35,186 nt of DNA from the NCBI GenBank assembly GCA_027082955.1, contig JALWTA010000046.1, forward strand, positions 1-35,186. Reading direction: 5' to 3'. The notes below the pieces were generated by a model that had not been told where the DNA came from, ran no database searches, and was given only the letters and a program-made list of their open reading frames with translations. Made by a program: the position numbers and the translations under genes. Below are positions 18,776 through 22,816 of the stretch, in pieces. Position 1 is the first letter of the stretch. Each line of letters starts with the position of its first letter. This stretch comes from Sulfurovum sp. (GTDB lineage: Bacteria; Campylobacterota; Campylobacteria; Campylobacterales; Sulfurovaceae).

Positions 18776-20695
18776 ATGGAAGCGTTACAGAAAGCCAAAG
18801 AGGCCAGAAGCAAAAAGCTCAACAAAGTTGAAACGACCAAAGCGCTAAAGGCACCGATGGATGTATTTGAAAAACTTGACGAGATTGCAGCGGCGGGGTA
18901 TGAAGGGTTGGCAAAAGAGGACTCCGCCTACTTTCTAAAGTGTTTCGGACTCTTCGACAAGGGCGAGGACTTTATGTTGCGCGTTCGCATTCCCGGCGGG
19001 CAGCTGACCAATGCACAGGCAGTTCGCATCGGTGAGGTGGCACAGGAGTACGGCAACGACTACATCGACATTACCACCCGTATGCAGGTGGAGCTGCGCT
19101 ATTTGCAGATTGCTGACATTGCAAAAGTCCTCAAAGCGCTTAAAGAGGTAGGCATCTCCACCTTCCAGACCGGGGTGGACAACCCAAGAAACATCGTCAC
19201 CGACCCCCTTGACGGCATCGCTTACGACAACATCATCGAGTCCATGCCCATCTTGACACAGCTTCAGGAGATTTTCCTCGAAAATCCCGAGTGGATCTCA
19301 GCCCTGCCGCGAAAATTCAATACCGGTATTCTGGGAAGCCTCAGCAACTCCTGTAACATCTTCGGGCATGACTGCAACTTCGTACTCGCCAACAAAGACG
19401 GTAACTTCGGCTTCAATGTCTACCTTGGTGCCCGTGTCGGTGTGCAGGCACGGGATGCAGACCTCTTCGTTACTCCCGAAGAGGTACCGGTATTCTTTAA
19501 AGCCTTGCTGAACGTTTTCAAAACCTACGGCTACCGCGACAACCGCAACAAGAACCGCCTGCACTTCCTGCTGCAGGATGTGGGTATTCCCGCGTTTATA
19601 GAAGCGGTCAAAGAGGAGGCTGGACTCTCCTTTGCCTCAGGCGGCATGACACTGGTACAATCACAGAACATCGCGTTGGGTGCCAACCGTGTGCTGCTTA
19701 AAAACGGCACCTACGCCTACAAGGTCATCGTCCCCTCCGGTATCTTCAGTGGAACAGATATGATCGCAGCGGCAAAAGCGGCACAGAGCTACGGCAGCGG
19801 CGACATCCGTCTAAGCTACGATCAGAACCTTTTCATTATCAACATAGACAAAGAGAAGCTTGAAACCTTTGAGAACGATAGGCTCATTGCCAAGTATGCC
19901 CAGTACAACAACCTCTATTTTCAAGATATGATCGCCTGTGCAGGCACTCAGACCTGCAGCTACGGTGTTATCCCCAACAAACCCGATGCCATCGAGATGG
20001 CGCACTTTCTTAACTCCCAAGTGCCCATCGCCAATGCCAACGTACGCATGAACTGGTCAGCATGCCCCAAAGGGTGCGGGGTGCACGGCATTGCAGACAT
20101 CGGTTTTGAGGGATGCAAGGCAAAAGATGCCGAGGGCAACCGTGTAGATGGTGTACACCTCTTTATGGGCGGCAAGATCACCCGCCAAGCCAAAGAGGCA
20201 CACATTTTACACAAGGCACTGCCTATCGACGAAGCTAAACACCACGTCAAGTATCTGCTGAAAACATATGCGGCATACAAAGAGCGCGGGGAGACCTTCG
20301 AGAGTTTCGAGACACGCTTTTTCAGCAGCAACTACAGCTATCAGGCGATCGGCTTCTTTACCAAGATCAACTACATCCTCCGAGACAAACTGGGACTGGA
20401 TGTGATGTTTGAGCTGGACAAAGAGCCCAAAAGCGGACGCCGTGAAGAGTACGAACTCTTCACCTTCGGACTCAAACTCTTCAAACTCCTCACAGGAGAG
20501 AAGCGTTTTGAGGCTGTCACAGGACTTGCCCCCACACTCGCACGTCCAAGAAAGATCAAACGTGATGAAGTCACCAAACTCAACCCAAATGTCCCACCAA
20601 AACTCTCCGAGGTCATCTACAATATGACGCATGAGAACAAGAGTGAACGGGCGCAGGTGTTCTCGGAGCTGTTGGTGGCTTTGAAAGAAGTATGA
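18776..20695 (+). CDS. nirA: ferredoxin-type nitrite reductase NirA
   Basis: Encodes 639 aa from the ATG at 18776, chosen for CAGGAGAA 7 nt upstream. It is a sirohaem / [4Fe-4S] enzyme reducing nitrite to ammonium. The pseudo-dimeric layout is visible: a ferredoxin-like half domain (about 60-130) with a haem domain, then a second pair. The cluster cysteines are C388 and C394 (CAGTQTC) and C430 and C434 (CPKGC). TRMQVELRYL is a typical sirohaem-binding stretch. It is longer than cyanobacterial NirA (about 510 aa) because of an added region at about residues 455-639. Sulfite reductase is the main alternative, but the narK and nitrate reductase neighbours favour nitrite. Confidence 0.9.
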   Translation: MEALQKAKEARSKKLNKVETTKALKAPMDVFEKLDEIAAAGYEGLAKEDSAYFLKCFGLFDKGEDFMLRVRIPGGQLTNAQAVRIGEVAQEYGNDYIDITTRMQVELRYLQIADIAKVLKALKEVGISTFQTGVDNPRNIVTDPLDGIAYDNIIESMPILTQLQEIFLENPEWISALPRKFNTGILGSLSNSCNIFGHDCNFVLANKDGNFGFNVYLGARVGVQARDADLFVTPEEVPVFFKALLNVFKTYGYRDNRNKNRLHFLLQDVGIPAFIEAVKEEAGLSFASGGMTLVQSQNIALGANRVLLKNGTYAYKVIVPSGIFSGTDMIAAAKAAQSYGSGDIRLSYDQNLFIINIDKEKLETFENDRLIAKYAQYNNLYFQDMIACAGTQTCSYGVIPNKPDAIEMAHFLNSQVPIANANVRMNWSACPKGCGVHGIADIGFEGCKAKDAEGNRVDGVHLFMGGKITRQAKEAHILHKALPIDEAKHHVKYLLKTYAAYKERGETFESFETRFFSSNYSYQAIGFFTKINYILRDKLGLDVMFELDKEPKSGRREEYELFTFGLKLFKLLTGEKRFEAVTGLAPTLARPRKIKRDEVTKLNPNVPPKLSEVIYNMTHENKSERAQVFSELLVALKEV

Positions 20696-20697
20696 AT

Positions 20698-20732
20698 AGG
20701 GAGCAGGTAGTAGGGAGTAGTGAGCAGTCACT
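20698..20732 (+). repeat. 7-bp tandem repeat array (copy A)
   Basis: Five consecutive heptamers follow 2 bp after the nirA stop: AGGGAGC, AGGTAGT, AGGGAGT, AGTGAGC, AGTCACT, with a consensus near AGGGAGY. A related array follows the DmsBC-like gene. Confidence 0.7.
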
Positions 20733-20759
20733 CAGAAAATTAGAAATTAAAGCTTTTGT

Positions 20760-20882
20760 GTTACTTTTGCACTTCTTGTGCAGATGCGGTTGCGCCCATA
20801 TGTGCGAAGCACGGCGCATAGAGCATCGTCCGCACAATTGCAAAAGTAACGCTTTTGGCGCTACCTTTTCTAAAAAGGTAGC
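20760..20882. repeat. structured palindromic repeat element, copy A
   Basis: A long imperfect hairpin followed by a short one. Stems, outside in: GTTACTTTTGCA (20760-20771) with 20839-20850; TTGTGC (20776-20781) with 20832-20837; GATGC (20783-20787) with 20823-20827; TGCGCC (20791-20796) with 20813-20818; GTGC (20802-20805) with 20809-20812, closed by a GAA loop and with a CATAT bulge on the left. A second hairpin, GCTACCTTTT-CTA-AAAAGGTAGC, spans 20860-20882. Copy B keeps the same plan with different stem sequences. Confidence 0.8.
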
Positions 20883-20910
20883 AAAAACACCAAACTTCAA
20901 AAAGAGTTTA

Positions 20911-20936
20911 TGTTACAAGACTATAATTGAGTAACA
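20911..20936 (+). promoter_or_regulatory. promoter with a flanking dyad before the DmsBC-like gene
   Basis: TATAAT at 20922-20927 lies inside the inverted repeat TGTTAC (20911-20916) / GTAACA (20931-20936). A protein bound to the dyad would cover the -10 and the start region, as a repressor would. The ATG at 20956 follows 20 bp after the dyad. Confidence 0.45.
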
Positions 20937-20955
20937 GCAAGAAAGGAAACAACAG

Positions 20956-22563
20956 ATGGCAGTGGAACCATTAAGCAAACACACACCGTTAGAGAGCTTC
21001 ATCAACCACAAAAACGACACCGGTATGCAGTGCGGCAACTACACCATCGATATCCCCGAGCTTAAGCCCGGAGAACAGTACCGTTTCCACTTCGATGCCA
21101 CCGCCTGTGTGGGGTGCCACTGCTGTGAAGTGGCGTGTAACGAACAAAACGCCAACCCCGATGAGATCAAATGGCGGCGCGTGGGTGAGATGGAGACAGG
21201 CTCTTTTCCTGATACGCTGCAGCTTTTCAACTCGATGAGCTGTAACCACTGTATCGACCCCGAATGTCTTCGCGGCTGCCCTACCGAGAGTTACATCAAA
21301 CTTGACAACGGGATTGTCTGGCATGATGACCCAAGCTGTATTGGGTGCCAGTACTGTACCTGGAACTGCCCCTATGAGGTGCCCGTCTTCAACCCTGACC
21401 GCGGCATCGTCACCAAGTGTCATATGTGCGTGGACAAACTCGAAGCGGGTCAAACCCCTGCCTGTGTACAGGCATGCCCCGGCGGTGCCATCGAGATAGA
21501 GACAGTCAATGTGGAGCAGTGGCTGGCGGAAGATATGGCAAAAGAGGGAGTCGCACCTCACCTGCCCGATATCGAGATCACCAAACCCACCACACGCTAC
21601 ACCCTGCCCGAACTTCCCGAAGGTCAGGAGGTACGCCCGGCTGATGAGCACATCCTCAAGCCTGCCCATGCCGAATTGCCGCTTGTCTTTATGACGGTGC
21701 TGACACAGGTTTCTGTGGGGGCATTTCTGGCACTCTTTTTGGGACAGATGCTCTATTCACTTGGCTTTAACCTGCCAAAACCAAACCTCATCATGGCAAT
21801 TTTGGCATTCCTGCCTGCTGCCATCGGACTGCCGCTTTCAGCCATGCACCTCGGACGGCCGGGCAAAGCGATGAGTGCCATGAAAAACTGGAAAAGCTCA
21901 TGGCTCAGCCGTGAAGCGATCGCATTGGGTGCCTACACCGGACTGGCAACGCTTACTGCCGGGCTCTACTTCCTCGATGTCGGCGGTACCCTTCTGCTGC
22001 TGCTTGAGGCACTCACCCTTGGGATCGGACTCTACGGTATCTACGCCCAGTCGATGATCTACCGTATCAAAGCACGTCCAAGCTGGAACCGCAAGAGTAC
22101 CACCAAACGCTTCTTTGGTTCAGGCTATGTCGGCTTTCTGCTTATCGCCACAGCACTGCTTGCAAGCAACGGTGCACAGGGTGCGACGGTACTGCTTGCA
22201 GTTACCCTGCTTGCGGGCATGGGGCAGGCACTGGTGATCTTTGAGGAGGTGATGTTCTACCGCCACCTTGACAAGGAAAATCCGCTCTACTACCAGTACA
22301 ACCGTAGCCGCATCCTGCTGCAGGAGCACTTTGGTAACATCAAGAAGTTCCGAGTCTATTCATTGGCTCTCTTTGCACTGGCACTGCCGCTGCTTGCCAT
22401 CCTTTTCACTGCCAGCGGCTTGACAGGTTTGGCGATAGTCACACTTGTCATCGCCACACTTGGTGCCCTGGCATCCGAACTTGCCGGACGCTACCTTTTC
22501 TACCGCACCGTAGTACCGTTAGGGCTTGCAGGGAACTTCTTTGCGGGGAACCAAAGACACTGA
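20956..22563 (+). CDS. fused DmsB-DmsC-like iron-sulfur / membrane anchor protein
   Basis: Encodes 535 aa with AAAGGAAA before the ATG. Residues about 40-205 are a DmsB-type electron-transfer domain with four [4Fe-4S] cysteine sets: C51/54/57/61, C96/99/104/108, C128/131/134/138 and C155/158/170/174. Residues about 240-530 form a DmsC-type quinol-oxidising anchor with about eight spans and the HLGRPGKA and NWKSSWLSREA motifs. There is no Tat or Sec signal, so the clusters should face the cytoplasm. Bacteria usually encode these two subunits separately. It lies between nirA and the Nas-type nitrate reductase and probably passes quinol electrons to the latter. A ferredoxin-recycling role is an alternative. 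Confidence 0.88.
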   Translation: MAVEPLSKHTPLESFINHKNDTGMQCGNYTIDIPELKPGEQYRFHFDATACVGCHCCEVACNEQNANPDEIKWRRVGEMETGSFPDTLQLFNSMSCNHCIDPECLRGCPTESYIKLDNGIVWHDDPSCIGCQYCTWNCPYEVPVFNPDRGIVTKCHMCVDKLEAGQTPACVQACPGGAIEIETVNVEQWLAEDMAKEGVAPHLPDIEITKPTTRYTLPELPEGQEVRPADEHILKPAHAELPLVFMTVLTQVSVGAFLALFLGQMLYSLGFNLPKPNLIMAILAFLPAAIGLPLSAMHLGRPGKAMSAMKNWKSSWLSREAIALGAYTGLATLTAGLYFLDVGGTLLLLLEALTLGIGLYGIYAQSMIYRIKARPSWNRKSTTKRFFGSGYVGFLLIATALLASNGAQGATVLLAVTLLAGMGQALVIFEEVMFYRHLDKENPLYYQYNRSRILLQEHFGNIKKFRVYSLALFALALPLLAILFTASGLTGLAIVTLVIATLGALASELAGRYLFYRTVVPLGLAGNFFAGNQRH

Positions 22564-22567
22564 TGTT

Positions 22568-22643
22568 AGGGAGTAGGTGGTAGGGAGCAAATTTCGCTGG
22601 CGCTGAGTGTTGAGCGCTGAGCATTGAGTATTTAGCGCTAAGA
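22568..22643 (+). repeat. 7-bp tandem repeat arrays (copy B)
   Basis: Heptamers start 4 bp after the preceding stop: AGGGAGT, AGGTGGT, AGGGAGC (22568-22588). After a short break a second run follows: GCTGAGT, GTTGAGC, GCTGAGC, ATTGAGT, ATTTAGC, GCTAAGA (22602-22643). The first three match the start of copy A almost exactly. Confidence 0.65.
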
Positions 22644-22693
22644 GAACAGTTGTGTTTTCTTAGTTTTAAATACTAGTTTTAGGTAGGTAACTT

Positions 22694-22816
22694 GTCACTG
22701 AGCACTGGGTGCACAGATGCGTTGTCGCCCATATTTGCGAAGCAAGGCGACAAAAGCATCGCCCGTGCACTTGCGAAGTGACGCTTTTTTGCCTACTTTT
22801 TTCTAAAAAAAGTAGG
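22694..22816. repeat. structured palindromic repeat element, copy B
   Basis: It has the same plan and length as copy A. Stems: GTCACT-GA-GCA (22694-22704) with TGC-GA-AGTGAC (22772-22782); GTGCAC (22709-22714) with 22765-22770; GATGC (22716-22720) with 22756-22760; TTGTCGCC (22722-22729) with 22746-22753; TTGC (22735-22738) with 22742-22745, again with a GAA loop and CATAT bulge. The second hairpin, CCTACTTTTTT-CTA-AAAAAAGTAGG, spans 22792-22816. It ends 41 bp before the nitrate reductase ATG. Confidence 0.8.

Follow-up and report, generated by a model that had tools for sequence, protein, structure and literature searches.

The window examined here is a 35,186-nucleotide stretch of DNA from Sulfurovum sp., the source genome of which comprises 2.1 Mb in 48 contigs. 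Within it, two copies of an intergenic palindromic element that we call the Sulfurovum repeat (copy A, 20760-20882; copy B, 22694-22816) are neighbored by genes for a nitrite/sulfite-reductase-like protein, an Fe-S plus DmsC-like protein, and a molybdopterin oxidoreductase of the formate dehydrogenase / assimilatory nitrate reductase group. These neighbors make plausible the suggestion, put forward in an earlier note on this DNA, that both copies lie upstream of genes of a nitrate module. However, this is one context among many. The position beside nitrate-assimilation genes looks incidental because other copies adjoin unrelated housekeeping genes (purH, a pepD-like peptidase gene, gyrA and others; named by eye).

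The repeat measures ~125-135 bp and is composed of two modules, a multi-stem head and a tail hairpin (Table 1). The head is built from five nested stems and includes a CATAT bulge and a GAA loop, both conserved; it typically starts with TGTC or TGTT and ends with GACG or AACG, and is linked via a run of T nucleotides to the A/T-rich hairpin of the tail. Every stem previously listed for copies A and B is present where it was reported and forms in the minimum-energy folds. The single-strand fold of copy A has a predicted energy of -58.6 kcal/mol (z = -6.6) and that of copy B -57.5 kcal/mol (z = -6.0), and for each copy none of 200 shuffled sequences folded as well. Beyond the stems already listed, there is an outermost stem outside the TTGTGC / GTGCAC stem (GTTACTTTTGCA / TGCAAAAGTAAC in copy A; GTCACT..GCA / TGC..AGTGAC in copy B), and a GATGC / GCATC stem is common to the two copies. 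A TATAAT sequence lies between copy A and the next gene, where the earlier note had placed a -10 element, and is kept in two other genomes (L084 and L147), but a promoter scan reported no full promoter there. Low-complexity GAGCGCTGAG / GGGAGTAGGTAGTAGGGAG repeats lie 5′ of both copies (22560-22660 and 20695-20735) and recur at other sites.

Table 1. Coordinates of the Sulfurovum repeat features in the window.
Feature	Position	Strand	Basis
Copy A head, nested palindrome	20760..20850	+	sequence, fold, covariation
Copy A P1	20760-20771/20839-20850	+	
Copy A P2	20776-20781/20832-20837	+	
Copy A P3	20783-20787/20823-20827	+	
Copy A P4	20791-20796/20813-20818	+	
Copy A CATAT bulge	20797-20801	+	
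Copy A P5	20802-20805/20809-20812	+	
Copy A GAA loop	20806-20808	+	
Copy A T-run linker and tail hairpin	20851..20882; arms 20860-20869 / 20873-20882	+	sequence, fold
Copy A tail hairpin CTA loop	20870-20872	+	
TATAAT between copy A and next gene, outside element	20922..20927	+	seen in sequence
Copy B head	22694..22782	+	sequence, fold, covariation
Copy B P1	22694-22699 + 22702-22704 / 22772-22774 + 22777-22782	+	
Copy B P2	22709-22714/22765-22770	+	
Copy B P3	22716-22720/22756-22760	+	
Copy B P4	22722-22729/22746-22753	+	
Copy B CATAT bulge	22730-22734	+	
Copy B P5	22735-22738/22742-22745	+	
Copy B GAA loop	22739-22741	+	
Copy B T-run linker and tail hairpin	22783..22816; arms 22792-22802 / 22806-22816	+	sequence, fold
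Copy B tail hairpin CTA loop	22803-22805	+	

When 30 copies were aligned with MAFFT, with no fitting to structure, 97.2% of the cells at stem positions pair. Double-sided changes occur in 101 cells, whereas shuffling predicts 28.4 ± 3.8 and none of 500 shuffles reached the observed number; cells here are counts of sequences rather than independent events. The covariation signal is gone when partners are slid by one to three columns; the structure was taken from members of the family, which biases this second control in its favor, and the double-change count is far above both controls. Sixteen type-2 copies yield the same result, with the outer stem and tail included. These data confirm the original observation that the two diverged copies in the window preserve one fold through compensatory changes. 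The accompanying claim that the unpaired parts are conserved is true of the CATAT bulge and GAA loop, where most columns have a mean pairwise identity of 0.81-1.0 (0.65 for the third CATAT column), but not in general, as evident by the averages of 0.66 for unpaired columns and 0.77 for paired columns. Within the source genome, the copies form two subtypes (A/C and B/D) that have unpaired motifs in common and differ in their stems. G-U pairs occupy only 7 of 741 cells. Such pairs are normally commoner in structured RNAs, although this expectation is not calibrated for the present copies, and their scarcity makes upkeep at the level of DNA the simpler reading.

Nucleotide and covariance searches reveal four copies in the source genome, including two more full ones beyond A and B. 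One is located between purL and purH and the other beside a pepD-like peptidase gene (names by eye), and each points opposite to the gene downstream of it. Model R1 matches 18 of 41 genomes, all from one genus. Covariance model R2 matches 70 of 175 Sulfurovaceae genomes representing 5 of 11 genera, with 1-14 matches per genome, many of which are weak or short (~88 nt); a large number of the weaker ones are short elements that combine a different head with the same kind of tail. Outside the family, a class-wide sample of 298 genomes contains only head-plus-tail relatives in one other genus. The covariance-model check recommended at the outset recovers the same fold in the source genome and in many related genomes, and neither a lack of further copies nor random stem-breaking substitutions, the two outcomes that the earlier note held would count against its proposal, were seen.

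No match to Rfam was obtained at the gathering score, and a permissive search gave only weak chance matches below it. No match was found in phages, nor in viral contigs when searched with one exact pattern, and matches in plasmids come from one record, a 395-kb replicon of Sulfurovum mangrovi. A literature search for Sulfurovum with repeats or structured motifs returned nothing beyond a single report (PMC3733652). Elsewhere in the order, three loci of another genus (L291, L292 and L293) carry head-plus-tail elements arranged tail to tail in inverted pairs, with two different heads and many copies per genome. In four other loci (L056, L057, L077 and L228), a second palindrome of the GTGAAGCGAAGCGGTATGC...GCATATCAC type resides inside the loop of the tail hairpin.

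Orthologous intergenic sites vary in occupancy among close relatives: some are empty, and others carry a different subtype or a palindrome unrelated to the element. Three genomes (source, L084 and L147) have the element at the A site, which elsewhere is short or holds another palindrome (GTAGGGTGTTGT...ACAACACCCTAC). At the B site, the source genome has one subtype, and L084 and L085 have other subtypes. A ribH-like site has no element in the source genome (L239) and has one in L049 and L054, and a gyrA-like site lacks the element in L213, carries it in L047 and L057, and retains only a tail-like hairpin in L226. The head found at the B site of L085 and that found at the gyrA-like site of L047, in another genome, share 98% identity. 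Homologous recombination of intergenic DNA between strains could account for part of this variation in occupancy.

Copies occur singly between genes, and tail-to-tail inverted pairs are also found. Genome G051 and its relative G046 contain near-identical copies whose flanks are largely unrelated, and these reveal that the unit starts at TGTC and ends shortly past the tail hairpin, and among 62 copies the conservation of flanks is lost within 3-6 bases of the 5′ end. Neither a target-site duplication nor a clean target motif was found at the compared sites, whose flanks are too diverged to provide a clean empty site. Of the 15 full copies in four complete Sulfurovum genomes, 12 have the same orientation relative to replication (p = 0.035), as do 18 of 25 when partial copies are included (p = 0.043), a weak and post hoc bias for which dnaA was taken as the origin, the terminus was assumed to be opposite, and positions were assigned by hand.

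Several other palindromes were observed at these and similar sites. The sequences GTAGGGTGTTGT...ACAACACCCTAC and GTAGGGGTGCCCCTTGTGGGTACCC occur at the A and B sites of relatives (L085, L086 and L087 upstream of 6001; L086 and L096 downstream of 7605). The purL-purH site of L220, L207 and L221 holds a different long multi-stem palindrome (CCGGTTTCATCCGAT...ATCGGATGAAACC), and at an hslU/V-like site, L224 and L227 carry an unrelated element of the same head-plus-tail plan where other genomes hold the Sulfurovum repeat. At ~2425-2475 of L044, next to copy C, there is a short palindrome of the CGTC type (CGTCATTCCTGGTTTGACCGGGAATC), which L206 lacks at the corresponding site. Composite inverted pairs occupy the same site in opposite orientation in L299 and L303, which derive from G051 and G046.

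The main rival explanation for the compensatory changes is template switching between the arms of an imperfect inverted repeat, in which one arm is rewritten from the other and no function of the fold is needed. Polymerase template switching is a documented process that can generate hairpins and keep them intact (PMC8794818). In L084, a close relative, the tail hairpin at the A site is changed along its entire length, on both arms, relative to the window and L147, as this process could produce, and a near absence of G-U pairs is expected if arms are copied from each other. However, such rewriting would tend to erase asymmetries, and most copies keep the asymmetric CATAT bulge, the 3′ bulge and, in type 2, a GA/GA mismatch. 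Comparisons at the same site also reveal many one-sided changes (61, versus 32 two-sided), whereas all pairs of strong copies give a two-sided excess; the two sets differ in divergence and their pairs are not independent, making this comparison suggestive only. Moreover, template switching leaves the dispersal of the element unexplained. We consider it unlikely as the overall explanation, although it may contribute to the compensatory changes and act together with a mobile-element mechanism.

A second alternative is that the element functions as RNA and is conserved as such, either as a cis-regulatory leader or as a small noncoding RNA. The strong fold and covariation would suit such a role, as would the location of both window copies upstream of genes in the sense orientation. 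Among 53 copies with callable neighbors, 40 lie between codirectional genes, 7 between convergent genes and 6 between divergent genes. The neighbors were assigned by simply taking the longest ORFs, and the set includes some orthologous copies, such that the 53 are not independent insertions. The 40 copies between codirectional genes are divided equally between sense (20) and antisense (20), and this balance does not fit a common role as a leader or one-way terminator; a 5′ leader or cis-regulator was rejected on this basis. Neighboring genes are unrelated, occupancy varies among close relatives, and the rarity of G-U pairs and the lack of an Rfam match likewise argue against a structured RNA, which we regard as quite improbable. 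Less probable still is that the head and T-run serve as a terminator for the upstream gene: in the aligned copies, a G+C-rich stem does precede CGC or CGA and a run of 4-7 T nucleotides, but of those flanked by codirectional genes half face the opposite way, a terminator scan that counts only loops of 3-8 nt flags neither window copy, and the T-run can pair with the purine run after the tail, although termination may arise as a side effect.

Of the two readings originally left open, a mobile palindromic repeat or a structured noncoding RNA, the first is favored by dispersal, variable occupancy, balanced orientation and the paucity of G-U pairs. The element is thus likely a non-autonomous mobile DNA repeat that has spread through the intergenic DNA of Sulfurovum and related genera, and it is probably handled as folded single-stranded DNA. 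Copies are dispersed and their fold is conserved; their distribution suggests that they have moved. In the mechanism we envision, DNA that becomes single-stranded, for example at replication, would allow the strand to fold, and an enzyme encoded elsewhere would read the constant bulge, loop and stem ends and copy or paste the element into other intergenic sites. If only copies that fold can serve as substrates and propagate, then the fold would be held by compensatory change while the letters of the stems drift into subtypes.

A link to a REP-associated or IS200/IS605-like transposase, as the earlier note had suggested, was not found. Y1 genes are present in 21 of the 31 genomes that carry strong copies and in 37 of the 47 that do not (hand tally). 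No copy is located within ~1.5 kb of any Y1 gene at the 30 Y1 loci scanned. Genome G155 has 14 matches and no Y1 gene over the cut-off, and G003, G124 and G126 likewise lack Y1. A Y1, IS200 or RAYT enzyme as the mobilizer is not supported by these data, and it is conceivable that the element was mobilized earlier by an enzyme since lost.

In its behavior, the Sulfurovum repeat appears similar to REP and REPIN elements. Sulfurovum sp. NBC37-1 carries both GTAG-tagged and CGTC-tagged REPs (Di Nocera, De Gregorio and Rocco, 2013; PMC3733652). CGTC REPs are defined by an unpaired terminal CGTC (or TGTC, CCTC) tag, a stem of 8-9 bp with complementary AT in its first two positions, and a loop of 4-5 bases, and they have no dedicated transposase (PMC3733652). 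Like them, the Sulfurovum repeat is a dispersed intergenic palindrome that occurs in inverted pairs with no dedicated transposase known, and type-2 heads have TGTC at one end and, on the opposite strand, CGTC at the other. However, the tag bases of the Sulfurovum repeat are paired (GTC with GAC in type 2), type-1 copies have GTTAC in place of a tag, and AC rather than AT follows TGTC in most type-2 copies. Its ~130 bp include five nested stems spanning ~90 nt plus a separate tail hairpin. We therefore do not class the repeat as a CGTC REP, from which it departs in the tag, stem, loop and first stem pairs.

REPINs, which are mobile hairpin-forming intergenic units in which two-sided compensatory changes are common (Bertels and Rainey, 2011; PMC3116915), are the closest in behavior. 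Like them, the Sulfurovum repeat appears to be a mobile hairpin unit dispersed through intergenic DNA, as judged from the distribution of its copies. REPINs consist of two inverted REPs around a spacer; the head of the Sulfurovum repeat reads as one nested palindrome, the arms of which may or may not descend from two REPs. The repeat differs from REPINs by its few copies per genome, conserved asymmetric bulge, tail hairpin and lack of RAYT association. ERIC, Correia and other MITE-like intergenic repeats are palindromes of 100-150 bp found between genes in either orientation. The Sulfurovum repeat resembles them in each of these respects, as compared by description, but no target duplication is seen at the compared sites with their diverged flanks. 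Integron attC sites vary in sequence but retain the folded single strand with its bulges, which parallels the drift described here. In contrast to attC sites, type-2 copies read without terminal GTTRRRY/RYYYAAC core sites, and the repeats are not linked to cassettes.

More tentatively, these repeats might constitute a Campylobacterota mobile DNA family whose substrate is a five-stem single-stranded DNA fold with a tail hairpin, whose enzyme is neither Y1/RAYT nor a REP-linked transposase, and which forms one branch of a wider modular set with different heads and the same kind of tail; we view this larger proposal as possible but doubtful. The Sulfurovum repeat bears on the open question of how CGTC-type repeats spread with no dedicated transposase (PMC3733652). 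Its clear boundaries, near-identical copies at unrelated sites, occupied and unoccupied orthologous sites, and copy-rich genomes that lack Y1 serve to narrow the search for the enzyme. Finally, the strongly compensatory evolution of what looks like a DNA element and not an RNA calls for caution when covariation is used to discover noncoding RNAs.
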